Source of the DNA: Oceanobacillus manasiensis
GTDB taxonomy: Bacteria > Bacillota > Bacilli > Bacillales > Amphibacillaceae
Length of the DNA: 64,000 nucleotides
Direction of reading: 5' to 3'
NCBI RefSeq assembly: GCF_000724085.1
Contig: NZ_CCDL010000001.1
Location: 1,240,001-1,304,000, forward strand
Made by a program: the position numbers and the translations under genes. Under the pieces are notes generated by a model. That model was not told the DNA's origin, did no database searches, and was given only the letters and a program-made list of their open reading frames with translations. Positions within the stretch are counted from its first letter, which is position 1. The number at the start of each line of letters is the position of its first letter. This document shows, one piece after another, positions 13,401 through 59,289 of the stretch.

Positions 13401-13406
13401 AGGTAC

Positions 13407-13685: not shown

Positions 13686-13719
13686 TTTAAGAATCAACCA
13701 TATAAGGGAGGAAACCACT

Positions 13720-14103: not shown

Positions 14104-14132
14104 AAGCTTACTTGGAAAATGGGGAGAGATTT

Positions 14133-42463: not shown

Positions 42464-43933
42464 TTGGTTAAAAAAGTTTTATCTTTTGATTTTGGAGCAT
42501 CGAGTGGACGAGCAATATTAGGGACATATGAAGGGAATATTATCCAATTAAAAGAGATTCACAGATTCGAGAATAAACCAGTCATCCTTAATAATACACT
42601 TTGCTGGGATATCGATAAACTTTTTGATGAAGTGAAGAAGGTGCTTAAGGAAATTGGCAAGAAAACAACTATTCACAGTATTGGTATTGATACCTGGGGG
42701 GTTGACTTCGGTTTACTTAATAAAGAGGGCAAACTGATCCATAACCCTGTACATTATCGGGACCCTAGAACGGAAGGGATCTTGGAAGAAGTAGAGAAGT
42801 CTTTTTCACAAAAAAAATTATATGAAATGACTGGAAACCAGATAATTTTTTTTAACACAATCTTTCAGCTGGCATATTTGAAAAAATATAAAGAAGAAGA
42901 ATTAGAAGAAGCGGAGTCACTGCTATTGATGCCTGATTTGTTTAATTATTTTCTGACGGGTGTGATGCGTGGGGAAGAGACAATTGCTTCGACGACACAG
43001 CTTTTTGATCCATATAAGAAAAGATGGAATGAAGAAATCATCCGTAAACTTGGTTTTCCAATTGATATTTTTCAAGAACTAGTAAAACCGGGTGAAAAAA
43101 TTGGAACCGTTTCAGAAGAACTGTCTAATGAATTAGGAATTCCACAAATACCGGTAATCGCTACAACTTCACATGATACAGCGAGTGCTGCTGTTAGTGT
43201 GCCTGCCTCAAATGATGAATTTCTGTTTATTTCATGTGGGACATGGTCGTTGGTAGGTACTGAATTGGATGAACCAGTCATTTCTCCAAAAACAGCGGGC
43301 TATAATATCACAAATGAAAGCGGATTCAACGACAAATCACTATTTATGAAAAACGTTACTGGTCTATGGGTGCTTCAAGAAACCAAAAGGCAAATGGAGA
43401 AAGAAGGAAGAAATTATTCGTATGATGAAATTACCAAAATAGCAGAAGAAGCAAAGGCTTTCAACTTTTTCATTGATACGGATCATCCAGATTTCCAGTT
43501 GCCTGGAGATATGCCTTTGAAGATAAAGGAATATGCGAAAAAGACAAACCAGCCTATCCCAAAATCAGATGGAGAAATTTTCCGAACTATTTATGAAAGT
43601 CTTGCATTAAAGTACCGTTCTGTATTTGAAGAAATCATGGAATGTACAGGTAAACATTTTAAACAGGTGCACATTGTTGGAGGTGGATCTCAGGCAGGAA
43701 TTTTATGTCAAATGGTGGCGAACGCAGGTAATATTGAAGTGTTGGCAGGACCTGTTGAGGCGACTGTCATTGGCAATACTGTTGTTCAGCTAATTTCACA
43801 AAACGTAATCCAAAGTGTCCCGGAAGCCAGGGGGATTATTAAACAATCCTTTGGTGTGAAAGTCTATCATCCAGAACAGCATGAAAAATGGAATACACAT
43901 TATGATGATATTAAGGCCATACTGGAGAATTAA
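42464..43933 (+). CDS. fucK: RhaB-type sugar kinase, probable L-fuculokinase
   Basis: 489 residues of the FGGY/ASKHA kinase family: F-D-F-G-A-S-S-G-R-A-I (phosphate 1), I-D-T-W-G-V-D-F-G (catalytic Asp region), S-H-D-T-A-S-A, S-C-G-T-W-S-L and V-G-G-G-S-Q (adenosine). Sequence style is that of rhamnulokinases; such kinases serve fuculose in many Firmicutes fuc operons, and the aldolase and isomerase partners make L-fuculose the likely substrate. TTG start at 42464 has AGAGGTG upstream; an ATG four bases earlier is out of frame. 46 bases after fucA. Confidence 0.88.
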   Translation: MVKKVLSFDFGASSGRAILGTYEGNIIQLKEIHRFENKPVILNNTLCWDIDKLFDEVKKVLKEIGKKTTIHSIGIDTWGVDFGLLNKEGKLIHNPVHYRDPRTEGILEEVEKSFSQKKLYEMTGNQIIFFNTIFQLAYLKKYKEEELEEAESLLLMPDLFNYFLTGVMRGEETIASTTQLFDPYKKRWNEEIIRKLGFPIDIFQELVKPGEKIGTVSEELSNELGIPQIPVIATTSHDTASAAVSVPASNDEFLFISCGTWSLVGTELDEPVISPKTAGYNITNESGFNDKSLFMKNVTGLWVLQETKRQMEKEGRNYSYDEITKIAEEAKAFNFFIDTDHPDFQLPGDMPLKIKEYAKKTNQPIPKSDGEIFRTIYESLALKYRSVFEEIMECTGKHFKQVHIVGGGSQAGILCQMVANAGNIEVLAGPVEATVIGNTVVQLISQNVIQSVPEARGIIKQSFGVKVYHPEQHEKWNTHYDDIKAILEN

Positions 43934-44026
43934 AAAGGAAGTATGTATGAGAAGCTGAGAAAAAGATAGAGCTCGGTTGGTTTAGCTAGATTAGTAGAAA
44001 CATTACTTAAACAGGAGAGGATAAAT

Positions 44027-45793
44027 ATGACTAGATTGCCGAAAGTTGGTATACGCCCAACAATAGATGGAAGAAGACAGGGAGTAAGAGAATCATTGGA
44101 AGAACAAACAATGAATATGGCAGAAAATGTTGCTAAGTTAGTTCGAGAAACATTAAAGTATCCGGATGGAAACCCTGTTGAATGTGTAATTGCAGATTCA
44201 ACAATTGGCGGAGTCAAGGAGGCGACAGATTGTAAAGAAAAGTTTCATCGGGAAAATGTGGGATTGACCATTACAGTAACACCATGCTGGTGCTATGGAA
44301 CAGAAACGATGGATTTGGACAATAAAATGCCACATGCTGTCTGGGGATTTAATGGAACAGAGCGCCCTGGTGCCGTTTATCTTGCGGCGGTTCTAGCAGC
44401 GTACGCACAAAAGGGGGTTCCAGCATTCGGTATTTATGGTGAGCATGTACAGGAAGCAGATGATGAAGAAATACCCGAAGATGTAATTGAAAAGTTATTA
44501 CAATTTACAAGAGCTGGATTAACTGTCGCAATGATGAAAGGTAAATCATATCTATCTATGGGGAATGTATCCATGGGAATCGCTGGATCAATTGTTAAAG
44601 ATGATTTTTTCCAAGAATACTTGGGAATGCGGAATGAGTACATTGACATGACTGAATTTGTTCGTCGAATAAACGAAGAAATCTATGATAAAGCTGAATA
44701 CGAAAAAGCATTAAAATGGACGAAAGAAAATGCTATTGTAGGCTTTGATAACAATCCAGATGAATTGAAATTCACGACAGAAGAGTATGAAAAGAGTTGG
44801 GAAACAGTTGTTAAGATGACATTGATTGGTCGGGATTTGATGGTGGGAAATAAAAAACTGGCAGAGGCTGGGTATGATGAAGAATCACTAGGTCATGATG
44901 CTATTTTGTCAGGATTTCAGGGTCAGCGACAATGGACTGATTATTCCCCTAATGGGGATTACATGGAAACGATTTTGAATAGCTCGTTTGACTGGAATGG
45001 AAAGCGTGCACCATATGTTATGGCAACAGAAAATGATAATAATAACGGTGTATCGATGTTGTTTAACTATCTACTTACAAATACACCGCAAATATTTGCC
45101 GATGTTCGGACCTACTGGAGCCCGGAGGCAGTTAAACGAGTTACCGGATATGATCTGACCGGTAGAGCGGCGAATGGCCTCATTCATTTGAAAAACTCAG
45201 GTGCTTCTGCATTGGATGGAACAGGCCAGCAAACAAAAGATGGTGAACCTGTAATCAAACCGTTTTGGGAGGTCACGGATGAAGAAGTAGATGCAATGAT
45301 GAAAAATACTACATTCCATCCAGCCAATAAGCAATATTTTCGTGGGGGAGGATTCTCAACTCGCTATCATACAAAAGGAGAAATGCCACTGACAATGACA
45401 CGGTTGAACATGGTAAAAGGGCTTGGACCTGTTTTGCAAATTGCTGAAGGGTATTCTGTTGAATTGCCGGATGAAGTTTATGAGACAATTGACAATAGAA
45501 CGGATCCAACATGGCCTACTACATGGTTTGCACCAATACTTACAGGTGAGGGGGCATTCAAGACGGCTTACGATGTAATGGACTATTGGGGATCTAATCA
45601 TGGAGCTATTTCTTATGGACATATAGGTGCAGATCTTTTAACATTAGCATCTATGCTAAGAATTCCCGTTAATATGCACAATATTGATGAATCACGTGCT
45701 TTCCGTCCACATGTTTGGTCGATGTTTGGAACGCAAAATGTTGAGGCAGCCGATTTCCGTGCATGTGATAATTTTGGAGCGTTGTATAAATAA
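44027..45793 (+). CDS. fucI: L-fucose isomerase
   Basis: 588 residues, full length for FucI (E. coli about 591). Converts L-fucose to L-fuculose, Mn-dependent. Conserved parts seen: start [42 protein letters not shown] (metal Glu and Asp region) and N-H-G-A-I-S-Y-G-H (metal His). Cytoplasmic hexamer in relatives. 93 bases after the kinase; a strong terminator follows. No fucose permease or fucosidase is present in the window. Confidence 0.95.
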
Positions 45794-45942: not shown

Positions 45943-45971
45943 TGTAAACGCTTCCAGTATAAATGTATAAT
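45943..45971 (+). promoter_or_regulatory. cre (CcpA) site overlapping the promoter of the PRD regulator
   Basis: TGTAAACGCTTCCA (45943-45956) fits the B. subtilis cre consensus at every fixed position. The -10 TATAAT is at 45966-45971. The cre box overlaps the -35 region, so carbon catabolite repression is expected. Confidence 0.8.
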
Positions 45972-46014: not shown

Positions 46015-47868
46015 TTGTTAACAACAAGAGAGATTCAAATTGTCACAAAATTACTTGAAGCAGAAAAAACTTTGAGGACAAAGGATTTATCAAATTATCT
46101 TGATGTTAGCACAAGGACAATAAAAAATGATTTAAAGAATGTTCGTGTATGGTTTCAGCAATATGACATCGAGTTGTGCGCACAACCGAATAAAGGTTAC
46201 TGGATTGATACGGAAGAAAATGAACGGTTAATGCTCTATCAAACATTATTGGGTGAGGATAGTAAACCCTTTCATGCTGATCAGAACACACGAATCGAAA
46301 AAATACTATATATATTTTTTTCGCAAAGGGACTATATAACTGCAGCGCAACTTTCAAATTATTTACAAGTTAGCAGAAATACGATCCTGAGTGATTTGAA
46401 CTTTTTGGAACAATACATCCAGCCTTGGGAAATTAAATTAAAGAGAAAAACACGTGTCGGTTATAAATTAGTGGGACCAGAGCTTAATATTCGTTTATTG
46501 TTCGAGAATATCATCCAAAGGAATTTAAATAATTTTGATGTGTATAACATTATTACGCAAATTCAATCGGACAAAAGAGTGGAATGGAATCACGGGTTTA
46601 CCTCAGAAATTAATGTGAAATTTGCCGAGGTAATAATCCACTTCCGTAAGATATGGAAAGACGATAGAAGAAACGACATAACACATTCAGAGATTTTATC
46701 TACACTTATACGTCTTACTATTTTTTTAGTAAGGATGGAATACGGCTTTACTATTGGTAACTATAGGTTACTAAAACTCGACCAAAACAAATCTCATGAT
46801 CTAGCTGGATTTTTGACCAAAATAGTAGGAGCTATATGTGAAGAAAATGCTTTACCATTACTTGAGGATGAGTTTTCTTACATTCACCGTAACTTTTTGT
46901 TGGAAGATGAAAATATAGATCTACTTATTTTAACGGGAGAATTAATTCATTACGTAAGTGAAAAAGAACAAGCTCCCTATTCTAATGATACTAGATTATT
47001 TAATAATTTATTGTTACATCTTTCATTACGATTTGAAAAACACTCCACATATGTTACAGAAATAAACCCCTTTATTAACGAGATTAAACAAAAAAACGCA
47101 TCATTATTTTTTTCTGTGAAAGAGGGTTTTAAAAATATTTTTTCAGATGTAGTAAATCACATGAACTTTCCTGAAGCGGTAGAGGACTCATTCATTTCTT
47201 TCATTACATTACACTTTCTTAATTCATATGAAAATGTACTAAATAGAAAGCCAGAAATTAGGGCTCTTTATGTATGCTCAACTGGAAGAGGAGTTGCTCG
47301 ATTTATCAAAAATCGAGTTGAGAGCCAAATCAACGATATCAAGATTACGACTTACTGTTCTGTAATGGAAATAGCTAACGTCACTAAAAATGAAAATTTT
47401 GATTTAATCATTAGTATGTTTCCGATTAAAACTACTTTTCCCGTAATTGTGGTAGACCCTGTGCCGACTGAAGATAATATCGAAGCTATAAGGGAAAAAG
47501 TTCATAGCCTATACCAGCAGGATAGAGTCGATGCAAAGGTTATAGAAAAGGATGTTTATAACCCGAATGAAAAAGATTTTGAGTCAACTAGTCAAGAAAT
47601 TATTATTAAGGGGTTTGAGATATCTTATGAAATCTATGAAAAATTGACTGATAAAGTTATCGAAGAACGTGAGAAAGGGCTTTTTGTCCATCTATTTCTT
47701 ATGATTCATCGTTATTATTTTCATAAACAATATGATCAGTTTATATATCAGAGAAACGGAGATCAAAATGAGGACTTGTTGCGGGAAATAAATGAAATCT
47801 TAAAAAGCCATAGTATTTATATTAATGAATCTGAACAAAGTGCATTGCTGCAATATTTCAAAAAATAA
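46015..47868 (+). CDS. BglG/MtlR-type activator with HTH, PRDs and EIIB-like domain
   Basis: 617 residues. Two N-terminal HTH regions: about 1-60 (T-R-E-I-Q-I-V-T-K-L-L ... L-S-N-Y-L-D-V-S-T-R-T-I-K-N-D-L) and about 90-150 (A-A-Q-L-S-N-Y-L-Q-V-S-R-N-T-I-L-S-D-L-N). PRD-type helical domains lie at about 190-400. An EIIB(Gat)-like domain, about 415-500, contains Y-V-C-S-T-G-R-G-V with a candidate phospho-Cys. The last 100 residues are helical. PTS components normally phosphorylate such regulators. It precedes and presumably activates the dga/DUF cluster. The start (TTG 46015) follows GTGGTGAAAG, a weak site. Confidence 0.88.
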   Translation: MLTTREIQIVTKLLEAEKTLRTKDLSNYLDVSTRTIKNDLKNVRVWFQQYDIELCAQPNKGYWIDTEENERLMLYQTLLGEDSKPFHADQNTRIEKILYIFFSQRDYITAAQLSNYLQVSRNTILSDLNFLEQYIQPWEIKLKRKTRVGYKLVGPELNIRLLFENIIQRNLNNFDVYNIITQIQSDKRVEWNHGFTSEINVKFAEVIIHFRKIWKDDRRNDITHSEILSTLIRLTIFLVRMEYGFTIGNYRLLKLDQNKSHDLAGFLTKIVGAICEENALPLLEDEFSYIHRNFLLEDENIDLLILTGELIHYVSEKEQAPYSNDTRLFNNLLLHLSLRFEKHSTYVTEINPFINEIKQKNASLFFSVKEGFKNIFSDVVNHMNFPEAVEDSFISFITLHFLNSYENVLNRKPEIRALYVCSTGRGVARFIKNRVESQINDIKITTYCSVMEIANVTKNENFDLIISMFPIKTTFPVIVVDPVPTEDNIEAIREKVHSLYQQDRVDAKVIEKDVYNPNEKDFESTSQEIIIKGFEISYEIYEKLTDKVIEEREKGLFVHLFLMIHRYYFHKQYDQFIYQRNGDQNEDLLREINEILKSHSIYINESEQSALLQYFKK

Positions 47869-47962
47869 TGTAAATCATACATTATGTCTTTGAATTATAC
47901 GTTACAACCAAGAAGGGTGGTTTAAGAAAATTAACAGCTTATACGAAGAAAAGGAAAAATTA

Positions 47963-48274
47963 ATGATAAATAGTGGCGATAAAGAATTGTGCAAACATGC
48001 ATTTGACCTAGCTCAAAACCAATGTAAAGAGAAAAGGATATACATGACAGATAGTCAACTATTGGCAGTGCTTTCTCATATTTCTGCTATGGTTCATCGT
48101 TCTTTAACAGGTGAAAAGTTAATTGGGTTTGATCACAAAATATTTGCTAGTGTTTCAGATGAATCATTATCTATAGCAAGAAAAGTGAAAGATTTACTAG
48201 ACGGATTGGAAGAGGATGAGATCTATCTATTGTCAATTCATTTTGAAGCGGCAAAAGAAAATTTGTATAGATAA
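47963..48274 (+). CDS. Stand-alone PRD-domain protein (EF_0829-like)
   Basis: 103 residues, a single PRD: L-L-A-V-L-S-H-I-S-A-M-V-H-R-S-L-T-G-E has the conserved His pair, and the end reads Y-L-L-S-I-H-F-E-A-A-K. No DNA-binding domain. I recall a TIGR model for exactly such a protein (EF_0829/AHA_3910), always found in this gene cluster. It could dimerise with the PRDs of the preceding activator or receive a phosphoryl group. ATG 47963 behind AAGGAAAAA. Confidence 0.8.
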   Translation: MINSGDKELCKHAFDLAQNQCKEKRIYMTDSQLLAVLSHISAMVHRSLTGEKLIGFDHKIFASVSDESLSIARKVKDLLDGLEEDEIYLLSIHFEAAKENLYR

Positions 48275-48304
48275 AGGATAGATAGTTCCATTTTCTTAGT
48301 TGGT

Positions 48305-48332
48305 TTCTTTAAATCATTTTAAGTTTAAAGAA
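48305..48332 (+). promoter_or_regulatory. Perfect 9-bp inverted repeat before dgaE
   Basis: TTCTTTAAA (48305-48313) and TTTAAAGAA (48324-48332), 10-base loop, no T-run. Lies in the 88-base gap between the PRD gene and dgaE. Possible activator site or mRNA stem; not a classic terminator. Confidence 0.45.
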
Positions 48333-48362
48333 GAGTTCACCATAAAAATTGGAGTGAAAAAA

Positions 48363-49481
48363 GTGGGAAAAAATGTATTTGAGGAATATGGGTTAAAAAA
48401 AATAATTAATGCAAGTGGGAAAATGACGGCTTTGGGAGCTTCTTCTGTCACTGAAGAAGTTGCCAGTGCATTGAAGGTTGCAGCAAAAGAATATGTGGAC
48501 ATTGAGGAGCTAATTGAATATGCAGGTAAAGTCATTGCTTATCATACCGGTTCTGAGGACGGTTGTCCGACTATTGGCGCCGCATCTGGAATTGCGATTG
48601 CAGTTGCAGCAGTAATTGCAGGAAGAAACAGGAGCTTAATTGAAAAAATGCCTAACTCAGATGGGTTAAAAAATGAGATTGTTATCCAAAAGGGCCAAAC
48701 CATTAATTTTGGTGGTACTATTGATCAAATGATTCGTATGGGTGGAGGTAAGGTCATCGAAGTTGGTAGTGTCAACAAAGTAGAAAGGGAACATATTGAA
48801 CAAGCAATTACCGATAAGACAGCAGCACTAATTTTTGTGAAATCTCATCATGCAGTGCAAAAAGGAATGCAAACGGTAGAAAATATGGTTAGAGTCGCCC
48901 AGAAACATCAGATCCCATTAATAGTTGATGGCGCAGCAGAAAGTGATTTTCGTAAATATATTACGATGGGAGCTGATATCGTAGTTTATAGCGGAGGTAA
49001 GGCGTTGGAAGGTCCAACATCCGGCTTTATTTGTGGGAAAAAGAATTTAATGGAAGCTTGTCGTGAGCAGTATAAAGGAATTGGCAGAGCAATGAAAGTT
49101 GGAAAGGAATCAATTTTGGGACTCATTGTTGCCTTAAATCAATATCAGTTAAAAGTCCCTCGTGCTGAAGAACAACTTTCTCGTATGGAGTCTATGTGCC
49201 AGAAATTGAATGAGATAGAGGGACTATCATGCGTCACCAAACAGGATGAAGCGGGCCGTTCCATTTATCGTGCACAAATAAAAGTAAAAGAAAAAGCAGG
49301 AATAACTGCAGAGCAGTTATTGTATCGTCTGAAAAATGGTGATCCAGCAATTTATTTGCGTGACCATTATGTGAATATTGGTGTATTATCTGTTGACCCA
49401 CGTCCATTGCTAATCGGTCAAGAAGACATTATTGCTGAACGAATCATTACTGTAATAAAAGGAGATGACAGCATTGCCTAA
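48363..49481 (+). CDS. dgaE: DgaE-family PLP-dependent ammonia lyase, copy 1
   Basis: 372 residues from GTG 48363 (GGAGTG upstream; the frame's earlier starts lie over the inverted repeat). SelA-like fold type I PLP enzyme: I-N-A-S-G-K-M-T near the N-terminus, D-G-A-A-E (189-193), PLP Lys213 in V-V-Y-S-G-G-K-A-L-E-G-P-T-S-G. Salmonella DgaE eliminates ammonia from D-glucosaminate-6-phosphate to give 2-keto-3-deoxygluconate-6-phosphate; the substrate here may be a related amino-sugar acid phosphate. The next gene, a KDGP aldolase, overlaps its 3' end by 8 bases. A paralogue closes the operon at 53526. Confidence 0.85.
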   Translation: MGKNVFEEYGLKKIINASGKMTALGASSVTEEVASALKVAAKEYVDIEELIEYAGKVIAYHTGSEDGCPTIGAASGIAIAVAAVIAGRNRSLIEKMPNSDGLKNEIVIQKGQTINFGGTIDQMIRMGGGKVIEVGSVNKVEREHIEQAITDKTAALIFVKSHHAVQKGMQTVENMVRVAQKHQIPLIVDGAAESDFRKYITMGADIVVYSGGKALEGPTSGFICGKKNLMEACREQYKGIGRAMKVGKESILGLIVALNQYQLKVPRAEEQLSRMESMCQKLNEIEGLSCVTKQDEAGRSIYRAQIKVKEKAGITAEQLLYRLKNGDPAIYLRDHYVNIGVLSVDPRPLLIGQEDIIAERIITVIKGDDSIA

Positions 49482-50229
49482 TAAACGAACATTTAAAAAT
49501 TCGCCACAGTTTTATAAAGAAAAAATTTGTCTAAATGTACTAGCTGGTTCAAAGGAAAATGCAGCTGATATTTGTGAAGCAACAGATGGTAACGTCCTGA
49601 TAGGACTTTTATCAAGAGACTATCAATCTAATGAGGAAGCTGTCTCAGCTATGAGGGAATATGCAAAAGTAACTGGGAATCGTATATCGATTGGATTAGG
49701 TGCAGGAGACCCATCCCAAGCAAAGAATGTAGAAAATATTGCAGGATTAGTACAACCGCAACATGTTAACCAGGTTTTTACAAATGTTGGTGCTACGAGA
49801 TCTTTACTAGGTCAGGAAAGTACAATAATCAATTCTCTAGTCTCACCTAGTGGTAAGAAGGGGTTCGTCAAAGTAAATACTGGAGCAATTTCTAGTGAAT
49901 TAACACCAGCCATCGTACCTGTAGAAACAGCAATTGGAATGATTAAAGATGCGGGTGGAAACTCGTTGAAATATTTTCCGATGAATGGTTTAGAAAAGAT
50001 GGAGGAATATAGCGTGGTGGCAGCAAAATGTGCAGAACAAGATTTTATACTTGAGCCAACTGGTGGGATTGGTTTGGATAACCTTGGAGAAATATTACAA
50101 GTAGCCTTAAGAGAGGGCGTACCAAAAGTTATACCACATATTTATAGTTCAATAATTGATAAAGAAACAAAACTCACAAAGATCGAGGATGTGAAAAAGG
50201 CTATGAACATTATAGAACAAATCTTATAA
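49474..50229 (+). CDS. dgaF: KDGP aldolase (DgaF family)
   Basis: 251 residues from TTG 49474, with AAAGGAG nine bases upstream; the in-frame ATG 49465 touches that site. A class I aldolase of the KDPG/DgaF family, TIM barrel: V-L-I-G-L-L, G-A-G-D-P-S, V-K-V-N-T-G-A-I-S, Schiff-base Lys candidates in K-Y-F-P-M-N-G and E-P-T-G-G-I-G. Cleaves 2-keto-3-deoxygluconate-6-phosphate to pyruvate and glyceraldehyde-3-phosphate. Overlap with dgaE implies tight coupling. Confidence 0.88.
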   Translation: MPNKRTFKNSPQFYKEKICLNVLAGSKENAADICEATDGNVLIGLLSRDYQSNEEAVSAMREYAKVTGNRISIGLGAGDPSQAKNVENIAGLVQPQHVNQVFTNVGATRSLLGQESTIINSLVSPSGKKGFVKVNTGAISSELTPAIVPVETAIGMIKDAGGNSLKYFPMNGLEKMEEYSVVAAKCAEQDFILEPTGGIGLDNLGEILQVALREGVPKVIPHIYSSIIDKETKLTKIEDVKKAMNIIEQIL

Positions 50230-50247
50230 AGAAACGAGGTGATTGGA

Positions 50248-51366
50248 ATGGAAGATCTTTTGTTGGTTAATGGGATTATCATAGACCCAGATAACTCTAA
50301 ACGAAAAAATGGAGTAATAGGTATTCAAAAGGGGAAATTCGTCGATCCATCTCAAATTGAAACTGATTCAGCTGAAATAGTGGACTTGAAAGGAGCATTT
50401 GTGGCTCCCGGATTCATTGACATTCATGTACATGTGTTTGAGAATAGTACCTTTTTAGGTGTGAAGGCAGATGATGTGGGGATTTCTCAAGGAGTAACTA
50501 CTATAGTAGATGCTGGGAGTTCAGGTGTGGACTACTACAATACTTTTAAAGAAGATGTTATTTATAAAAGTGAGACAGAGGTACTGGCTTTTTTAAATAT
50601 TTCTCGTAAAGGGCTAGTGGAAGGTACGCATGAATTACATAATCCCGAAGATTTAATGTCCATTTATGAGGCAAAACAAGCTTTTTCTAGGAATCCTTCA
50701 TTAGTAGGGATTAAAGTAAGATTGAGTCGATCGGTAGTTGGAAATCAAGGTGTTCTACCATTGTTACATGCAAGAAAAGTAGCTGATCAAATTAATGTGC
50801 CTTTAATGGTACATATTGGTAACCCACCTCCTTATTTGCCGGAAGTCTTTCCAATTCTAAAAAAAGGAGATATTGTCACACATGCTTTTCATGGGAAACC
50901 TCATGGAATTTTAGAAGAAAACGAGCTTATTCCAGAAGCAAAAGATGCATTAGATCGCGGTGTGCTTTTCGATATTGGCCACGGGTCAGCTAGTTTCAGT
51001 TACAGTATACTGGAGCAATTTAAAAAACGTTACCCATACACATTTACTACCAGTACAGATATACACAGTCAGAATATAAATGATTCGGTAGGAAGTCTTA
51101 TGGTAACAATGACAAAACTCTTGCAACTAGGATACACACTGCAAGATATAGTTAAGAGTGTCACTATACTGCCAAAGAGGGCACTTCAGTTAAAGGACCA
51201 AGGTTCATTTGCTATTGGAACAACTGCTGACGTTTCTATTTTCCGAATAATACAACAAGAGTCTGATTTGAAAGACGCAGAAGGAAAAACGAAAAAGACT
51301 TCAAAATTAATGAAGCCTGAAATAACAATTCGTAATGGAATAATAGTTTGGAAGAGTAATCAATAA
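50248..51366 (+). CDS. Metal-dependent amidohydrolase/deacetylase (EF_0837-like)
   Basis: 372 residues from ATG 50248 (CGAGGTG upstream). Amidohydrolase superfamily: metal H60-V-H62, carboxylated-Lys candidate in V-G-I-K-V-R-L, metal His in M-V-H-I-G and T-H-A-F-H-G, catalytic Asp in T-S-T-D-I-H-S-Q. Related to dihydroorotase-like enzymes; named in databases as amidohydrolase/deacetylase family metallohydrolase, as I recall. In this operon it would free an amino-sugar acid from an N-acyl or N-carbamoyl group before DgaE acts. Cytoplasmic. Confidence 0.85.
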   Translation: MEDLLLVNGIIIDPDNSKRKNGVIGIQKGKFVDPSQIETDSAEIVDLKGAFVAPGFIDIHVHVFENSTFLGVKADDVGISQGVTTIVDAGSSGVDYYNTFKEDVIYKSETEVLAFLNISRKGLVEGTHELHNPEDLMSIYEAKQAFSRNPSLVGIKVRLSRSVVGNQGVLPLLHARKVADQINVPLMVHIGNPPPYLPEVFPILKKGDIVTHAFHGKPHGILEENELIPEAKDALDRGVLFDIGHGSASFSYSILEQFKKRYPYTFTTSTDIHSQNINDSVGSLMVTMTKLLQLGYTLQDIVKSVTILPKRALQLKDQGSFAIGTTADVSIFRIIQQESDLKDAEGKTKKTSKLMKPEITIRNGIIVWKSNQ

Positions 51367-51402
51367 ATTAATATATTTTATAAAAAGATGAGGGGTATGA
51401 AA

Positions 51403-51765
51403 ATGATTACAGTTGTAATTGCAGATCGATTAGGTAAAGGGCAAAATGTTGCGAGAGGTGCAGAGGAAGCCGGCGCAAATGTGATTCTTGTGCCTGGGAT
51501 CGGTGCAGATATGAAACTAGGTGACGTCATGAATGAGCATGATGCAGATTTCGGGATTTCGTTTTGTGGTAGTGGTGGTGCTGGAGCGATTTCAGCTCAA
51601 ACAAAATATCAGTACCCTGCAAAATATGGCATGAGGTCAATTCAAGAAGGAATTACTGCAATTGAAAATGATAAAAAGGCCCTTGGTTTTGGATTTATGG
51701 ATTCGGCTGATTTAGGAAAAGCATTGGTTGAAGCTTATAATAAGAAGGTTAACAAAGGTGAATAA
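51403..51765 (+). CDS. SFCGS-family glycine-rich protein (DUF2620, EF_0830-like)
   Basis: 120 residues from ATG 51403, spaced seven bases from GAGGGG; the longer start 51388 overlaps that site. Small alpha/beta protein, V-V-I-A-D-R-L-G-K-G-Q ... V-P-G-I-G-A-D, with the family motif I-S-F-C55-G-S-G-G-A-G. C55 is the only Cys and H46 the only His. A Cys followed by a glycine loop recalls the phospho-Cys loop of PTS EIIB proteins, but it is in the middle of the chain and no homology is claimed. Function unknown; first of four transport-cluster genes. Confidence 0.85.
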   Translation: MITVVIADRLGKGQNVARGAEEAGANVILVPGIGADMKLGDVMNEHDADFGISFCGSGGAGAISAQTKYQYPAKYGMRSIQEGITAIENDKKALGFGFMDSADLGKALVEAYNKKVNKGE

Positions 51766-52033
51766 AAAGATAGAAGATTATATCTATGTAAGTGGAAAAG
51801 GTTCTTCAAAAAAGCAAGCTGTTAGTCAAGCGCTTGCTAAAATTCAATCAGAAGTTATGCGAAAATATCATGATTACATGATTATTAGGGTAGAGCCGAT
51901 GGATGTGGAGATATCTAATATTGAAGAGCAGAAGTATACAGAAAAATTTCTCTTCTTTTTCTTCAAAAGAGAAAAGACAAGTGTGAATGTCGAGTTGAAG
52001 GTAACAGTTTCCCTATTTTTGATGGGATTATAA
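51758..52033 (+). CDS. DUF4312 protein (EF_0831-like)
   Basis: 91 residues from GTG 51758, overlapping the previous stop by eight bases, with AGAAGG upstream; the frame's longer ATG is inside the previous gene. Small alpha/beta protein: Y-I-Y-V-S-G-K-G-S-S-K-K-Q-A-V-S-Q-A-L-A-K-I-Q, then M-I-I-R-V-E-P-M-D-V, and a hydrophobic tail. Single His (H38), no Cys. Unknown function, known only from this gene cluster. Confidence 0.82.
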   Translation: MNKKIEDYIYVSGKGSSKKQAVSQALAKIQSEVMRKYHDYMIIRVEPMDVEISNIEEQKYTEKFLFFFFKREKTSVNVELKVTVSLFLMGL

Positions 52034-52058
52034 CTAAAAAAGGGCGGGGTAAGAATAA

Positions 52059-52841
52059 ATGACTATTTGGATTTTAATAAAGTCACTCATCATTGGTGGG
52101 CTAGTTGGGTTTTCTGTTAGTGCTGGTGCAGCTAGAATGTATCACATTCCCAAAACACAAGGTATGGGAGCATTTCGTACCCTTGGAGAGTTAAATGCTT
52201 GTCAAGGTGATCCAGCAAGTCACTTTTCGTTTGGTCTTGGTGTTTTCTTTAATGCCTGGGCGAATACTGTTGCAGGAGGTGCCTTGACTGGTGATGTTGG
52301 ACATCGTGTTATACCAAACTGGTCAGCCGCAATTGTGCTTTTAAAAGGTAAGGATCCAGAAAAGACTTTGCATAATCCAAAAAAGATGGCGATTACTGGC
52401 GCCATTGTTGGGGCATTAGTGGTTGCATTTCTTAATGTAACGGCATCCTCTATACCAACATCGTTGCAAGAAGTTGCTAGTGAAGTATTGGTCCCCGCAG
52501 CAGACTGGTTTTTAAACCCTGTTATGCCAGCAATTTTCTGGTTAGCGGCAATAGATGGGGGTAGAAGAACAGGGATATACGGAACATTATTTGGGGGATT
52601 AGCACATCTTGTAATGGGAAATGCAGTGCCGGGTCTTGTATTAGGAATTTTGATTGGTAAAGGCGTGGATGATACTGGGTGGTCCAGGATGTCCAAAATA
52701 ATAATTACAGCAATTGTATTACTCTTTATTTTCAGTGGATTCTTCCGCGGGTTTGATATCGAATTGTTGCAATCATTAAATATCACAGTTCCTAATTGGT
52801 TAGAAGATCTACATCAAATATTCGGATATGAGGTGGAATAG
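52059..52841 (+). CDS. DUF4310 membrane protein (EF_0832-like)
   Basis: 260 residues, about six to seven transmembrane helices, rich in Gly. Start I-L-I-K-S-L-I-I-G-G-L-V-G-F-S-V-S-A-G-A-A-R-M-Y-H, then G-E-L-N-A-C-Q-G-D-P-A-S-H-F-S-F-G-L-G and D-G-G-R-R-T-G-I-Y-G-T. One half of a probable two-subunit membrane complex with the next protein; co-occurs with it and the two small soluble proteins. Function unknown. One base separates its stop from the next start. Confidence 0.85.
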   Translation: MTIWILIKSLIIGGLVGFSVSAGAARMYHIPKTQGMGAFRTLGELNACQGDPASHFSFGLGVFFNAWANTVAGGALTGDVGHRVIPNWSAAIVLLKGKDPEKTLHNPKKMAITGAIVGALVVAFLNVTASSIPTSLQEVASEVLVPAADWFLNPVMPAIFWLAAIDGGRRTGIYGTLFGGLAHLVMGNAVPGLVLGILIGKGVDDTGWSRMSKIIITAIVLLFIFSGFFRGFDIELLQSLNITVPNWLEDLHQIFGYEVE

Positions 52842-52842
52842 T

Positions 52843-53505
52843 ATGGGAAATCAAAGTAGTAATGGAGAATTAGCAAATAAAGATTTTTGGTATGCCGATT
52901 GGTCATTCCCGATATTTACAACCCTTCTTGCTTCTGGAATCTTTGCTGGAACCCATATGTATTATGTGCACGGGACAGGTGTTTTTAATGAAATTTCCAT
53001 TCTCGCTATGTTGAGAGTAGGCATGGAAGGTGGAGGATATGGAGCTGCTGCTGCATTTGGAGCAAGTTTTCTCTTTGCTAGGATATTAGAAGGTTCACTT
53101 GTAGGGATATTAGATATTGGCGGTTCTATGATGACCGGAATTGGAATTGGTCTCCCAGCTCTTATTTTAGCTGCTGGGTTTACACTCCCTTTAACAAGTT
53201 TTCCAGTGGCTTTGATCACAGGTGCTTTACTAGGGTTAGCGATAGGGTTAATTATTATAACCATACGCAAATATACTATAGGTCAAGGTGGCTCTTCATT
53301 TGGAGCAGATATTCTGATGGGGGCAGGAAATCAAGCAGGTCGTTTTTTCGGACCGCTTATTATAGTCAGTGCCTGTGCAGCTTCAATACCAATAGGCATC
53401 GGTTCCATATTGGGAGCACTAATATTTTATGGTATGAACAAACCAATTATTGGTGGTGCAATTCTTGGAGCAATGCTTTTAGGTTATTTCTTCCCCATTA
53501 CCTAA
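52843..53505 (+). CDS. DUF4311 membrane protein (EF_0833-like)
   Basis: 220 residues from ATG 52843, behind GAGGTGG; the longer frame starts inside the previous gene. Six to seven transmembrane helices, Gly- and Ala-rich: G-M-E-G-G-G-Y-G-A-A-A-A-F-G-A-S-F and G-A-D-I-L-M-G-A-G-N-Q-A-G-R-F-F-G-P. Pairs with DUF4310. With the two small soluble proteins this makes a four-part set of two soluble and two membrane proteins. Confidence 0.85.
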   Translation: MGNQSSNGELANKDFWYADWSFPIFTTLLASGIFAGTHMYYVHGTGVFNEISILAMLRVGMEGGGYGAAAAFGASFLFARILEGSLVGILDIGGSMMTGIGIGLPALILAAGFTLPLTSFPVALITGALLGLAIGLIIITIRKYTIGQGGSSFGADILMGAGNQAGRFFGPLIIVSACAASIPIGIGSILGALIFYGMNKPIIGGAILGAMLLGYFFPIT

Positions 53506-53525
53506 CATGAAATGAGATGTGAAAA

Positions 53526-54644
53526 ATGGATATTTATAAAAGGTTAAAGTTAAAAGAAGTAATTAATGCTTCTGGAAAGATGACTAAACTGGGTGTTTCA
53601 GGTGTTAGTGATGAGGTGGCAGAAACAGCTAGGTATGCATTACAAAACTATTTTCATATAGATGAAATGATGATAGCTGTTGGGGGCGTAATTGCAGATG
53701 TAACCGGCGCAGAAGATGGCTGTCCAACAGTGGGAGCGGCTGCGGGAATTTCAATCGCAACCGCGGCTATTATTACAGAAGGAAAAGAAGATCTAGTCTC
53801 ATATATGCCGCATTCAAAAGGATTAAAGAATGAAATCTTAATCCCAAGGGGGCACATTATTAATTTTGGTGCTGATATCCGACAAATGATAGCTGTTGGG
53901 GGCGGAGTACCAGTTGTGGTCGGCACAGAAGAGGCCCTTACGATTCGTGATATAGAATTGGCGATTACACCACAGACTGCGGCACTTATGTATGTTAAAT
54001 CTCATACTACAGAGAACTATAGTATGATTTCAATGAAACAATTACTTAACATAGCGCATAAAAATGATTTACCTTTGATAGTCGATGCTGCAGCAGAATA
54101 TGATTTTCAAAAATATATCTCTATGGGTGTTGATATTGTAATTTATAGTGGATCAAAAGCTCTGGCTGGCCCAACTTCTGGTATGATTTGCGGACGATCA
54201 TTTTACATGGAAGCATGCCGTGCACAATATAACGGAATTGCACGTACGATGAAAATTGGTAAAGAAGGAATGGCAGGTTTGGCAGCAGCATTACTTGAAT
54301 ACCCAGACAAAGTTATGCCCCGAAAAGAGCAAATAAAAGTTTTAGATGTTATGAAGGAAATAGTTGATGAAACGCCAGGTATAAGGTATTCCATTATTCA
54401 AGATGAAGCAGGCCGAAACATATACCGTGGCCGTATAGAAGTAATTGAAAATGAAATAAATATATCGGCTAACGAATTATATCGAGCTCTAAAAGAAAAT
54501 GATCCATCAATTGTATTGCGGAATCACAAGCAACAACAGGAAATACTAGATATCGATCCACGTAATTTGAAAATGGGGCAAGAAAAAATGATAGCGAATA
54601 AAATAAAGAGTATAGTTGAAGAATCTACTAAACAACAGAAATAA
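53526..54644 (+). CDS. DgaE/SelA-like PLP enzyme, copy 2
   Basis: 372 residues, the same length as copy 1 and similar throughout: I-N-A-S-G-K-M-T, E-D-G-C-P-T-V-G-A-A-A-G, D-A-A-A-E, PLP Lys211 in V-I-Y-S-G-S-K-A-L-A-G-P-T-S-G. By eye about half the residues are shared, so this is an old paralogue rather than a recent duplicate. It may act on a different epimer, or the two may form a heterodimer. Last gene of the operon, followed by a perfect terminator. ATG 53526 behind GAGATGTG. Confidence 0.85.
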   Translation: MDIYKRLKLKEVINASGKMTKLGVSGVSDEVAETARYALQNYFHIDEMMIAVGGVIADVTGAEDGCPTVGAAAGISIATAAIITEGKEDLVSYMPHSKGLKNEILIPRGHIINFGADIRQMIAVGGGVPVVVGTEEALTIRDIELAITPQTAALMYVKSHTTENYSMISMKQLLNIAHKNDLPLIVDAAAEYDFQKYISMGVDIVIYSGSKALAGPTSGMICGRSFYMEACRAQYNGIARTMKIGKEGMAGLAAALLEYPDKVMPRKEQIKVLDVMKEIVDETPGIRYSIIQDEAGRNIYRGRIEVIENEINISANELYRALKENDPSIVLRNHKQQQEILDIDPRNLKMGQEKMIANKIKSIVEESTKQQK

Positions 54645-54680: not shown

Positions 54681-54718
54681 AAAACCCCTTGTAAACATTC
54701 CGTTTACAAGGGGTTTTT
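54681..54718 (+). terminator. Rho-independent terminator of the dga/DUF operon
   Basis: AAAACCCCTTGTAAAC (54681-54696) and GTTTACAAGGGGTTTT (54702-54717): a perfect 16-bp stem, 5-base loop, T-run. Confidence 0.92.
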
Positions 54719-56324: not shown

Positions 56325-57146
56325 TTGAGTAATATAGATACATTTAATGCGAGAGTATATCAGTTTAGTGATAAATTAACATCTAGTGATGAAATAATTG
56401 CTCGTTATATTGTCAATCACCCTCAAGAAGTGAGTAGAATGAAAATTACAGAGTTAGCTCATAAGTTATATATTTCTAAATCAAGTCTAGCACGATTTTG
56501 CACAAAGCTTGGTTATGACGGCTTTATAGAGTTGAAAAATAGCCTTAGATCCGAGCTCGTTGAAGATGAAGAAGAAACAATAAAAATATCTAATTTATTG
56601 GATGATTTAACTCATGATTATCGTGTGCTGTTGAATCGTTACACAAAGTACAGTGCAATGGATGAATTTGAAAAACTAGCTAATATTATCATGCAAAAGG
56701 ATCACATCTATCTTTTTGGTTTAGGGCATTCGGCACTGTCCTCTCAACTATTTGCAACTCAACTAAAACGATTAGGTATTCGAGCTGAGGCTACTGATTC
56801 AGTAGAAGAGATGAAAATGCTGTTAGGAAATTTAAACCAAGATGATTTATTAATCCTAAATACTCACAGTTCTAAAAATTTCAATATCATTAATATACTT
56901 AGCATTGCTAAAGAATTTAAAATTGATACATTTTTGATCACTTCCTTTGGCAATCCTAATATAATTAAATTAGTCAACAATTATATTGTTCTTCCCAACA
57001 CACTTCACCTAAAATTAAGTAGTCTGATTAACCCATCTTTTATAACAAATGTAATGATCGATATTGTAATAGGTTGTCTCATTGATGCAAATAAAGACTA
57101 TATGAACAAGTATCAACGGTCGATAAGATATATCAATGAGGATTAA
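56325..57146 (+). CDS. MurR/RpiR-family transcriptional regulator
   Basis: 273 residues. N-terminal HTH_6 domain (K-I-T-E-L-A-H-K-L-Y-I-S-K-S-S-L-A-R-F-C-T-K-L-G-Y) and C-terminal SIS sugar-phosphate isomerase-like domain (about 110-250: Y-L-F-G-L-G-H-S-A-L-S-S-Q-L ... L-I-L-N-T-H-S-S-K-N). The SIS domain should bind a phosphosugar, here most likely one from alpha-mannoside breakdown. TTG start behind GGGAGGTG. A terminator separates it from the PTS genes it probably controls. Confidence 0.9.
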   Translation: MSNIDTFNARVYQFSDKLTSSDEIIARYIVNHPQEVSRMKITELAHKLYISKSSLARFCTKLGYDGFIELKNSLRSELVEDEEETIKISNLLDDLTHDYRVLLNRYTKYSAMDEFEKLANIIMQKDHIYLFGLGHSALSSQLFATQLKRLGIRAEATDSVEEMKMLLGNLNQDDLLILNTHSSKNFNIINILSIAKEFKIDTFLITSFGNPNIIKLVNNYIVLPNTLHLKLSSLINPSFITNVMIDIVIGCLIDANKDYMNKYQRSIRYINED

Positions 57147-57184
57147 AAATCGTGTCAAATGTTTCAAAAAGATCTCGGTCCATT

Positions 57185-57216
57185 GTACTACGCCAAACGG
57201 TGTGGTACTTTTTTTG
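57185..57216 (+). terminator. Terminator between rpiR-type gene and PTS genes
   Basis: GTACTACGCC (57185-57194) pairs with GGTGTGGTAC (57199-57208) with two G-T pairs, followed by seven T. Leaves either partial read-through or a separate PTS promoter, which I cannot see clearly in the 34-base gap. Confidence 0.75.
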
Positions 57217-57249
57217 TAAGCACTAATTAAAAAAGAGGGGGGAACAATC

Positions 57250-57732
57250 TTGAGTGAACTATATGAAATGGGAGTGGAAACATTTGTGAACCTTAACTTT
57301 GAAAATAGTAGTACAGAAAAAGTTAACCTAATAAAAGAAATAGCTCAAGATCTATCTAAGAAAATGAAAGTGCAAGATTTAGCAGACTCCATAATAACTG
57401 CAGTCAACGAAAGAGAGCGACTAAGTACAACAGGGTTTGGTAATGGCATAGCTATACCGCATGGGAAAGTAAATGGACTTAAAGAACCTTACCTAGCATT
57501 TTATAATTTTGCTAACCCAATAGATTGGGAAGCACTAGATGATGAAAAGGTTGTAAACGCTTTCGTTATCTTGGTGCCTGACAACGATTCATCTGATATA
57601 CATTTACGTTTAATCTCTACATTGGCATATAATCTGATGGATGAAACGTACCAAACTAAAATTTCAACAATCAGAAATGAAGATGAAATGAAGCAATTAA
57701 TAAAAGAAATGTTTAAAAAAGAAGGAGAGTAA
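57250..57732 (+). CDS. PTS fructose/mannitol-type EIIA component
   Basis: 160 residues, EIIA (PTS-2) fold with the phospho-His H71 in G-I-A-I-P-H-G-K. Accepts phosphate from HPr and passes it to EIIB. TTG start at 57250 behind AGAGGGGGG. First of three split PTS genes, which in the E. coli 2-O-alpha-mannosylglycerate system (MngA) are fused in one protein. Confidence 0.92.
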   Translation: MSELYEMGVETFVNLNFENSSTEKVNLIKEIAQDLSKKMKVQDLADSIITAVNERERLSTTGFGNGIAIPHGKVNGLKEPYLAFYNFANPIDWEALDDEKVVNAFVILVPDNDSSDIHLRLISTLAYNLMDETYQTKISTIRNEDEMKQLIKEMFKKEGE

Positions 57733-57736
57733 AGAG

Positions 57737-58057
57737 ATGAATATAATTGCTATTACGGCTTGTCCAACTGGTGTTGCTCATACATTTATGGCGAAAAAAG
57801 CATTAGAGAACGCTGCTCTTAAGCTTGGACATAATATTAAAGTAGAGACACAAGGCGCAACAGGTATTGAAAACGAAATAACGGAAGAAGAAGTAAAAAA
57901 GGCAGACATTTTAATCTTAGCAGTTGAGGTAGGAATAGCTAAGAAAGAGAGATTTGAAACAATAAAGAAAGTCAATATTCCTATTGCAACAGCAATAAAA
58001 AGTGCCGAAGCACTAATTCGTAAAACAGAAGAAAAATTAAAGGATACACAAAAATAG
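57737..58057 (+). CDS. PTS fructose-type EIIB component
   Basis: 106 residues; phospho-Cys9 in I-T-A-C-P-T-G-V-A-H-T-F-M-A, the fructose-EIIB signature. Four bases after the EIIA stop, with AAGGAGAG inside the EIIA end. Transfers phosphate to the sugar bound in EIIC. Confidence 0.93.
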   Translation: MNIIAITACPTGVAHTFMAKKALENAALKLGHNIKVETQGATGIENEITEEEVKKADILILAVEVGIAKKERFETIKKVNIPIATAIKSAEALIRKTEEKLKDTQK

Positions 58058-58079
58058 TTTTTAATGAGGAGAGGTTTTT

Positions 58080-59156
58080 ATGTTGAAGAAATTACAACAA
58101 GCATTAATGACTGGTGTTTCTTATATGCTCCCATTTATCGTTATAGCTGGTATGACAATTGCTGTTACAGGTATGTGGACGCAATATATAAACCCAGATA
58201 CAGTTGCAATTAATACTTTAAATGGTTTCGCTTGGACTATTATGGATCTTATTCCAGCTATATTCGCAGCATATGTTGCTTATGCAATCGGTGATAAGGC
58301 TGCGATTGCGCCCGGATTTGTAGGGGGTTATATCGCATCTCAACCTTTAATAGAAGGAACTGCTGCTAGTGGTTTTTTGGGTGCTATGGTTGCTGGTGTT
58401 ATAGCAGGATATTTAGTTGCTTATTCTAAAAAAATTAAGGTGCCTGAATTCCTTGAATCTATTAAGAAAACATTGTTTATTCCCGTGATCACCGGGTGGA
58501 TAGTATATGTGCTAATGACTTATCCAGTTGCAATGACTATTGGTGAACTAAATGAATTTATTATTAATAATCTGATTACATTATCTGAAGCACCTCAGTA
58601 TGCATTTCTCCTAGGTGCAATATTGAGTGCAATGTGTGCATTTGATATGGGAGGCCCGCTTAATAAAATAGCTATTACATTTGTATTCGCTGTATGGAAT
58701 GATCCCAGCGGCATTGGCTTTGTAGTGAATGCCGCAGTATTCCCAGGAATTATGGTTCCGGCATTATCCGTTGGCATAGCAGCACTAATTGCTAAATCAA
58801 AATTTAGTGATGAAGAGATTAAAATGGCTCCACCTTCTATTTTATCGGGGATTGTTGGTATTACAGAGGCTACTTTACCATATGCTTTTCAAGACCCGAT
58901 TAGAGTTATTGGTTCTAATATGATTGGCGCTGCAGTTGGGGGAGCTATCATGATGGGATATGGAGTTTCTACTTCTGGCGTTTCTGGTATTTTTGGGCTT
59001 CCTATGGCTAGCAACATATTTATGTTTATATTATCTATCGTTGTAGGTGTAGGTATCTCTGTACTATTGCAGATTACTTTAAAAAAGCGTAAACAACCAA
59101 CAAGTTCTAGTGAAGAAAAGAATGATGATGATCTAGATTTCGAAATTACAATTTAA
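58080..59156 (+). CDS. PTS fructose-type EIIC permease
   Basis: 358 residues, about nine to ten transmembrane helices: S-Y-M-L-P-F-I-V, G-G-Y-I-A-S-Q-P-L, D-M-G-G-P-L-N-K and G-I-T-E-A-T-L-P-Y-A-F, the conserved EIIC fructose-family blocks including the Glu of the substrate loop. Translocates and phosphorylates a glycoside; with the GH38 enzyme that follows, an alpha-mannoside such as mannosylglycerate or a mannobiose is likely. ATG/TTG start at 58080 behind GAGGAGAGG. Confidence 0.9.
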   Translation: MLKKLQQALMTGVSYMLPFIVIAGMTIAVTGMWTQYINPDTVAINTLNGFAWTIMDLIPAIFAAYVAYAIGDKAAIAPGFVGGYIASQPLIEGTAASGFLGAMVAGVIAGYLVAYSKKIKVPEFLESIKKTLFIPVITGWIVYVLMTYPVAMTIGELNEFIINNLITLSEAPQYAFLLGAILSAMCAFDMGGPLNKIAITFVFAVWNDPSGIGFVVNAAVFPGIMVPALSVGIAALIAKSKFSDEEIKMAPPSILSGIVGITEATLPYAFQDPIRVIGSNMIGAAVGGAIMMGYGVSTSGVSGIFGLPMASNIFMFILSIVVGVGISVLLQITLKKRKQPTSSSEEKNDDDLDFEITI

Positions 59157-59160
59157 ATAT

Positions 59161-59210
59161 AAAAAAGAGGTGGAGAGACTGGTTTTAAAAAGCTAGCTCC
59201 TCCTTCTTTT
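59161..59210 (+). terminator. Possible weak terminator after EIIC
   Basis: AGAGGTGGAG (59165-59174) can pair imperfectly with CTCCTCCTTC (59197-59206), followed by TTTTTA. May lower expression of the mannosidase relative to the PTS. Confidence 0.4.
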
Positions 59211-59289
59211 TATGAATGATAGAGAAATCGGATAATAGTTAACACCTGAACAAACAAGATTTAACAAATTAAGTATGGAGTGATTACTA

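Follow-up and report, generated by a model that had tools for sequence, protein, structure and literature searches.

Proposed uptake route

How does the substrate of an operon whose enzymes depend on phosphate enter the cell and receive that phosphate, when neither a linked kinase nor a known phosphotransferase system (PTS) accompanies the genes? This question is raised by ten open reading frames (ORFs) arranged in a close tandem array (gaps of −17 to +94 bp) at 46015-54644 on the + strand of a 64,000-nucleotide stretch of the 3.8 Mb genome of Oceanobacillus manasiensis (C1:1240001-1304000). This whole stretch is called the window below, and positions are counted from its first letter. The ORFs encode, in order, a regulator, a stand-alone PRD protein, DgaE, DgaF, an amidohydrolase, the SFCGS protein, DUF4312, DUF4311, DUF4310 and a second DgaE. 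A first-pass annotation of this DNA had spoken of a nine-gene cluster; all the genes it named are present in tandem on the + strand by Pfam, NCBIfam and ORF coordinates, and the ORF count is ten.

We propose, with a probability of roughly one half, that the stand-alone PRD protein, SFCGS, DUF4312, DUF4311 and DUF4310 work together as a phosphorylating permease fed by the PTS, followed by the amidohydrolase, DgaE and DgaF. The parts of this proposal differ in strength. It is very probable that the DUF4311/DUF4310-based block transports the substrate; that uptake is phosphorylating is about an even call; the complete relay from PRD to SFCGS, extended to the yhf operons discussed below, is tentative.

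In the proposed route, phosphate would pass from phosphoenolpyruvate through EI and HPr to the stand-alone PRD protein, whose His39 or His93 would serve as an EIIA-like carrier between HPr and SFCGS. From the PRD protein it would move, in an EIIB-like step, to SFCGS with its predicted RpiB fold, where Cys60 would accept it, and from SFCGS to the substrate during passage through DUF4311/DUF4310. The substrate would be a 2-amino-2-deoxy-aldonate, most likely N-acylated, for example N-acetyl-D-glucosaminate or a stereoisomer. The amidohydrolase would take off the acyl group, DgaE would remove ammonia to give 2-keto-3-deoxy-6-phosphogluconate (KDGP), and DgaF would split KDGP into pyruvate and glyceraldehyde-3-phosphate. 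If this is true, the PTS contains a class that is invisible to homology searches, PRD domains can serve as transport phosphocarriers, and the yhf operon of E. coli K-12 obtains its first mechanism.

Cluster identity and conserved gene order

The operon is a member of the EF_0829-0839/AHA_3910-3917 cluster, whose Salmonella counterpart is STM4440-4448. The first-pass annotation had pointed to an EF_0829-EF_0839/AHA cluster from database names, and the NCBIfam models agree with it, giving the AHA range as 3910-3917; every model from TIGR03577 to TIGR03583 is a hypothetical equivalog with a function-free name. The window proteins scored above the curated cut-offs of TIGR03582, TIGR03577, TIGR03578, TIGR03580, TIGR03579, TIGR03581 and TIGR01437 (both DgaE copies), while the amidohydrolase stayed under the TIGR03583 cut-off (320 vs 432). 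The gene set is identical to that of the EF/AHA cluster, from which the window differs in having the enzymes ahead of the DUF block and in its second DgaE without His163, otherwise found among the surveyed loci only in Virgibacillus halotolerans (L009). The operon thus belongs to a known cluster to which no function has been assigned, and the proposed mechanism is what is new, together with the RpiB fold of SFCGS, its homology to YhfU, the PRD–SFCGS adjacency and fusion, the HPr/EI appendages, and the DgaE arginines without PfkB.

A DUF4310 relative is encoded in at least 521 of the 596 pattern-matched genome_contigs stretches, and hosts of the cluster include Salmonella, Klebsiella, Enterococcus, Serratia, Yersinia and Aeromonas. 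The best 80 of these at least 521 confirmed relatives, mostly from enterobacteria, were surveyed, and a further 21, taken from genomes of the window's phylum and of gammaproteobacteria, brought the set to 101 loci (L001-L008 excluded; some loci cut by contig ends). One of the 101, L168, is a separate enzyme locus of genome G244 that has no DUF genes. The Bartonella, Salmonella, E. faecalis and window operons entered the residue counts and stand outside the locus counts; only DgaE ORFs above 300 aa and PRD regulators above 450 aa were used for residue counts. The closest cluster among the best 80 was that of V. halotolerans (DUF4310 identity 85%).

Gene content was highly uniform over the 80 loci. 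DUF4311 and DUF4310 were found in 80 each, the stand-alone PRD, SFCGS, DUF4312, amidohydrolase and DgaE in 79 each, the regulator in 78 and DgaF in 71. SFCGS, DUF4312, DUF4311 and DUF4310 formed an uninterrupted series, in this order, in 97 of the 99 loci holding both SFCGS and DUF4310, and the other two have DUF4311 as two ORFs; this block order is far above chance expectation. The PRD gene lies immediately 5' of SFCGS, also in 97/99 loci. The exceptions are L009, where PRD stands at the operon head as in the window, and L091, where a single ORF carries PRD (residues 28-114) fused to SFCGS (132-244). The stand-alone PRD protein of the window (47963-48274, EF_0829/AHA_3910 family, TIGR03582 92.5 bits vs cut-off 69.35) is the candidate histidine phosphocarrier, and its His39 (102/103, one gap) and His93 (103/103) are conserved.

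The block also keeps company with its enzymes. The transport-operon idea of the first-pass annotation was to fail if DUF4310/DUF4311 occurred widely without them, and 98 of the 100 DUF4310 loci are accompanied by them within the stretch examined, amidohydrolase and DgaE being the enzymes considered. The two that lack both are L021, which reaches a contig edge, and L090, whose genome has the DUF block alone and DgaE, DgaF and amidohydrolase on another contig. DUF4310 scored over the Pfam cut-off in 6/299 genomes of the window's phylum and 29/398 of its class, and DUF4311 was found in 12/398 genomes from the phylum to which the Xenorhabdus genome G299 belongs; the DgaF aldolase family is missing from 7/7 Xenorhabdus genomes.

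Several arrangements of the cluster were observed besides. In L165 (G1050, 2719-14201) the series amidohydrolase-PRD-SFCGS-DUF4312-DUF4311-DUF4310 occurs twice in tandem, with DgaE and DgaF after the second copy only. A HAD-type hydrolase gene lies 3' of dgaF in L089, L091, L092, L093 and L161 (Pfam Hydrolase_3 in L093, by likeness in the rest). Matches H18-H25 of a phage collection, which are phage-labelled records or bacterial contigs, hold this bacterial operon and are probably host DNA.

In our PMC literature search, DUF4310 and DUF4311 occurred in no paper and the EF_083x names only in unrelated papers; further PMC searches on the cluster genes gave nothing on function among the matches listed. 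The STM4440-4448 names matched PMC11000858, whose tables tag STM4441-2 with crp and also list STM4446, and PMC7432712; one table line of PMC7513527 contains DUF2620.

Enzymes and the origin of the phosphate

DgaE-family pyridoxal phosphate-dependent ammonia lyases are encoded at 48300-49481 (copy 1; TIGR01437, 481 bits) and 53526-54644 (copy 2; 407 bits), and both copies, at 435 and 368 bits, stay under the equivalog cut-off of 600 for DGL. DgaF, the KDGP aldolase, is encoded at 49465-50229 (PF07071, E 3.1e-93; NF047796, 348 vs cut-off 300). In PMC9529869 on the characterised DGL (7LC0/7LCE), manual docking brings the phosphate near Arg301, Arg332 and Arg346, and His163 is the proton donor; the active-site lysine appears there as Lys217, compared with a conserved lysine at residue 213 of the printed chain. 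The three arginines were kept in 104/104 DgaE proteins and His162 in 103/104 (Ala in Bartonella). His163 was kept in 102/104; only the second copies of the window (Thr161) and of L009 (Ser) depart from it. Judging by DgaE and DgaF together, the compound degraded would be a 2-amino-2-deoxy-hexonate-6-phosphate or something closely related.

The second DgaE copies without His163 (53526-54644 in the window, 10702-11808 in L009) retain the phosphate-site arginines and were seen only in these two surveyed loci. Such a copy perhaps acts on a different epimer.

The amidohydrolase/deacetylase-family metallohydrolase (50239-51366) scored over NF006689 (378 vs cut-off 371) and has the PDB relatives 8wzy, 2ogj, 2ics and 8je0. 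Its place in the pathway suggests an N-acyl group on the substrate. Earlier studies reportedly deal with cog3964 amidohydrolases and acetyl-(R)-mandelate; they did not come up in our PMC search.

A PfkB homologue was found in only 2/101 loci (L164, L168), and also in E. faecalis L117, and a FGGY homologue like the window's fuculokinase in 0/101 (kinase families other than PfkB and FGGY were not searched). That enzymes dependent on phosphate occur with neither a linked kinase nor a known PTS speaks for a phosphorylating permease. The Salmonella dgaABCDEF operon offers a direct comparison, as DgaABCD is a PTS according to the account of that operon in PMC9529869, and Miller et al. (2013) call it mannose-class in their title. 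The two operons share DgaE and DgaF homologues, the conserved DgaE phosphate site and PTS involvement. Unlike the Salmonella dga operon, the window operon lacks EIIA/B/C/D proteins of the DgaABCD type and has PRD, SFCGS, DUF4312, DUF4311, DUF4310 and the amidohydrolase. The DUF block occupies the place of DgaABCD, in keeping with the earlier view of an uptake-plus-catabolism operon.

Predicted fold and relatives of the SFCGS protein

The SFCGS protein (51388-51765, PF14272) is the candidate EIIB-like subunit. A model built from 26 sequences reached a predicted local distance difference test (pLDDT) score of 93. In Foldseek, ranks 1-45 were RpiB/LacAB-type isomerases (best E 4.0e-5, TMq 0.57-0.72), the uronate ketol-isomerase 4u8f being counted among them. 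The 23 best VIA-align matches gave Z of 8.0-12.7 over 109-118 residues, with 8.0 for the best unrelated match, and the top value of 12.7 covered 118 of 121 SFCGS residues. The model thus predicts with high confidence an RpiB/LacAB sugar-phosphate-isomerase fold over the whole domain, where the first-pass annotation had seen a generic transport-like protein. The SFCGS cysteine motif aligned with the RpiB CGTG motif, and its Cys60 (Cys56 of the model) was kept in 103/104 proteins, Arg14 and Arg83 in 104/104.

Sequence evidence for the link to RpiB is weak yet consistent with the fold. LacAB_rpiB (PF02502) gave sub-threshold Pfam matches with 18/26 SFCGS members (best E 0.0037), and L091 scored 17.7 bits, under the gathering score of 24.7; such counts are noisy, as the unrelated DUF1685 matched 19/26 members. 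The hhalign score for SFCGS–RpiB was 21.1 compared with at most 20.1 in 100 shuffles, and for DUF2620–RpiB 26.9 compared with 22.0. Homology between SFCGS and DUF2620 (PF10941), the family of YhfU, is clear from sequence: hhalign gave E 3.6e-6 and a score of 36.7, where 100 column shuffles reached no more than 20.6, Pfam cross-matches were found in 4/5 (best E 0.0042) and 3/26 (best E 0.005) proteins, and SFCGS Cys60 aligns with YhfU Cys52. SFCGS had earlier been equated with DUF2620; these are two related families, and the window protein matched PF14272 only in Pfam, with no match above the DUF2620 cut-off.

SFCGS could instead be a catabolic enzyme of the RpiB type that isomerises or epimerises the sugar acid, with transport left to DUF4311/DUF4310 together with DUF4312. 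The RpiB/LacAB fold, the CG[ST]G cysteine motif, the sugar-phosphate isomerases and 4u8f among the matched structures, and the weak LacAB_rpiB matches all fit this alternative. SFCGS differs from RpiB/LacAB isomerases in lying under the Pfam LacAB_rpiB cut-off, in the coupling of its gene to membrane-protein genes, and in reading 'DR' where RpiB has a 'DH' motif (by eye). Its position between the PRD and membrane-protein genes in 97/99 loci and the PRD–SFCGS fusion in L091 speak against a catabolic enzyme, and the operons of YhfU carry different enzymes, so that a module in common is more probable than a catalytic step in common. We consider a catabolic role unlikely.

For the EIIB-like step of the phosphorylating permease, the likeness to PTS EIIB proteins is one of analogy only: both are small and soluble with a conserved cysteine at a helix start. 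The EIIB fold differs from that of SFCGS. No EIIB occurred among the 50 Foldseek and 50 VIA-align matches listed for SFCGS, a comparison that tests little, and Pfam listed no PTS EII family for the 26 SFCGS proteins.

Membrane proteins and the parallel with the yhf operons

DUF4311 (52059-52841; PF14188, TIGR03580) and DUF4310 (52828-53505; PF14187, TIGR03579) are predicted polytopic membrane proteins by a crude hydropathy scan. A match to a known non-transport family was to count against transport, and Pfam showed no other family for either protein at E up to 0.1. DUF4311 matched nothing at E <0.4 among PDB sequences, and profile comparison of DUF4310 with DUF4311 gave no support for a relationship. 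The DUF4312 gene starts at about 51758 and ends at 52033 (PF14189, TIGR03578); the GTG at 51758 was chosen by alignment with L009, as the mechanical ORF opens at 51728. DUF4312 gave only chance-like matches with the PDB. The DUF4310 match in G070 lies in a membrane protein that looks unrelated by inspection, and of the weak second DUF4311 matches in G585 and G526, the one in G585 comes from an ORF that is presumably J-domain-like.

Many invariant polar residues occur in DUF4310 and DUF4311, as might be expected if the two proteins were a membrane-bound enzyme or sensor that works together with the PRD proteins. The substrate would then enter otherwise, for example through the fructose-type PTS encoded some 2.6 kb further downstream, whose EIIA, EIIB and EIIC genes lie at 57250-59156; EIIC is present also in E. 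faecalis L117 and in L163, L164 and L168. This downstream PTS stands under its own RpiR-type regulator with a separate − strand gene in between, an EIIC like that of L164 is found in 3/101 loci, and relatives of the window's fructose-type EIIC/EIIB in 0/101 (mannose, glucitol and other classes not searched). A membrane enzyme or sensor is accordingly improbable to us.

The downstream genes form a cluster of their own at 56325-61962, with an RpiR-family regulator, EIIA_2, fructose-type EIIB and EIIC, and a GH38 alpha-mannosidase.

A further argument for transport by the DUF block was obtained from the E. coli K-12 yhf operon, which encodes YhfT, YhfU (DUF2620), YhfY (a PRD below the Pfam cut-off) and other enzymes. 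By eye, the first PRD histidine of YhfY is kept and the second is not. The operon (yhfSTU-php-yhfWXYZ) shares with the window a stand-alone PRD (YhfY), an SFCGS homologue (YhfU) and a membrane protein (YhfT); it differs in that one 434-aa YhfT replaces two proteins, DUF4312 is absent, and the enzymes are others. The order regulator-PRD-DUF2620-YhfT was observed in the window's own genome (G000), in G079, in G095 and in Cetobacterium. The combination of PRD, RpiB-fold protein and membrane protein with two enzyme sets argues for transport over a shared catabolic step and suggests a portable module. Together with YhfY, YhfU and YhfT, the window proteins might then represent an unrecognised phosphotransferase permease superfamily in which PRD, till now a regulatory target, would act as EIIA and the RpiB fold as EIIB; we put this forward as a possibility on the doubtful side.

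The yhf-type operon of the window genome (L113, G000:C2:860000-874000, at 1926-9469) encodes a YhfZ-like regulator, PRD, DUF2620, YhfT, a phosphotriesterase homologue, an aminotransferase, a YhfX-like protein and a phosphopentomutase-like protein, YhfT being named by family search and most others by likeness. In viral contigs, YhfT was seen as one fragment only. A resemblance of DUF4310/DUF4311 to YhfT by eye is not claimed, as hhalign gave it no support.

Links to HPr and EI

An HPr gene on the same strand is appended to the operon in 5/101 loci (L156, L161, L166, L167 and L092). It lies 19-30 bp past dgaF in the first four, all from Bacilli genomes that belong to a single family. In L092, HPr and EI come after dgaF and the HAD-type gene, and L167 also has EI; these were the only two of the 101 loci in which EI was found. 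The genomes of both (G159 and G1033) hold other EI genes, so the operon-linked EI genes are extra copies. In two closely similar Bartonella plasmids, HY406 and HY761, the whole operon is followed by a same-strand HPr–EI fusion, in which Pfam finds HPr and three EI domains only. In the stretches examined beside these operons, no EII gene was found adjoining the operon-linked HPr/EI (by annotation for Bartonella; by Pfam for some L092 and L167 neighbours; by fructose- and cellobiose-type queries, other EII classes not being searched).

EI was present in 16/16 cluster genomes tested. In the window's phylum, EI occurs in 118/299 genomes and in 6/6 of those with the cluster over the cut-off (hypergeometric 0.0035, without phylogenetic correction). 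The appended HPr with or without EI in 5/101 loci, the two Bartonella plasmids, and phosphate-requiring enzymes without linked PfkB in 99/101 loci do not agree with the earlier view of a DUF block unrelated to the PTS.

The two Bartonella plasmids (L147, L169) are 55-56 kb long, and the operon adjoins type VI secretion genes there. In seven gammaproteobacterial loci (L030, L034, L043, L045, L051, L053, L152) an HPr-like gene on the opposite strand lies just past the regulator with EIIA_2 nearby; this neighbourhood is presumably rpoN-ptsN-npr, and we set the HPr-like gene down to location and did not use it as PTS evidence.

Weighing the proposed phosphorylating permease

A serious rival limits the PTS role to regulation: DUF4310/DUF4311 would be an ordinary non-phosphorylating permease, HPr/EI would be attached for phosphorylating the PRD regulator, perhaps also the stand-alone PRD, and the phosphate of the substrate would come from an unlinked kinase or arrive with the substrate. 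The regulator (46015-47868; Pfam HTH_11, Mga, PRD) has PRD and conserved histidines (His335 in 102/102 proteins, His400 and His559 in 101/102 each), and such a regulator would require HPr~P once a plasmid had brought it into an alphaproteobacterium. In L156, L161 and L166 HPr stands without EI, which fits regulation as well as transport, and a PfkB kinase is linked in L164, L168 and L117. The rival fits less well with the 99/101 loci that have no PfkB homologue (of other kinases, only FGGY was searched) together with the DgaE phosphate site in 104/104 proteins, and in L091 PRD is fused to SFCGS and not to the regulator. On balance a purely regulatory role is possible but doubtful.

The phosphorylating permease itself has to be held against a number of results that weigh on the other side. 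HPr or EI is missing from most loci, four of the five loci with HPr belong to a single bacterial family, and HPr alone would also suit a purely regulatory role. On the G159 contig the HPr/EI pair might serve another PTS, since an ordinary EIIC and one more EI gene lie some 7-9 kb away. Ordinary PTS_EIIC genes are present in 16/16 cluster genomes tested, so that the EI association may just mean that PTS-rich genomes hold the cluster. The loci L117, L164 and L168 add an ordinary EIIC, a PfkB kinase and a gene of the MupG family (6-phospho-N-acetylmuramidase-like; by Pfam in L164, annotation in L117 and likeness in L168), variants hinting at peptidoglycan-derived sugars there.

The proteins themselves supply further points of this kind. 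At E up to 0.1, none of the window proteins DUF4310, DUF4311, DUF4312 and SFCGS matched a PTS EII family in Pfam. The predicted SFCGS fold is that of an isomerase and not a known EIIB fold, and one SFCGS ORF aligns Arg at Cys60. The DUF4311 model is of low confidence (pLDDT 61; top PDB match E 1.9), and nothing is therefore concluded from its structure search. Comparison of DUF4310/DUF4311 with YhfT (PF10797) by hhalign gave E of 0.12-0.93, deeper and split profiles included, the profiles being shallow (Neff 1.6-2.5 where printed). The proposal gives DUF4312 no part of its own. The PRD–SFCGS fusion is a single case, and since DUF4311 is split in that locus, assembly error or decay is possible there. 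Transport, phosphorylation, the order of the relay and the substrate are each read from indirect evidence.

Operon boundaries and neighbouring genes

The first-pass annotation had called the regulator a PRD/EIIB activator. Its PRD is supported by Pfam; the EIIB part corresponds to a VCSTG motif at residue 420 without a Pfam call, and the cysteine of this motif is absent from the residues conserved in more than 85% of 102 regulators. A cre at the left end agrees with a putative cre-like site, TGTAAACGCTTCCA / TGTAAACGCTTCCAGT, found by pattern match at 45943-45958 on the + strand, 5' of the operon. A promoter had also been placed there; as the promoter scan of the window gave 37 matches compared with 40.7 expected from shuffles, that is, no excess, no operon promoter is claimed. 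At the right end, the terminator was recovered as a hairpin at 54681-54717 (+ strand, by sequence and fold) with a 16-pair stem and a 5-base loop. Its folding energy of −23.2 kcal/mol (z −5.5) was equalled by 0/200 shuffles. Just 5' of the operon, at 42464-45793, lie fuculokinase-like and L-fucose-isomerase-like genes (named by inspection), with their own terminator-like hairpin at 45809.

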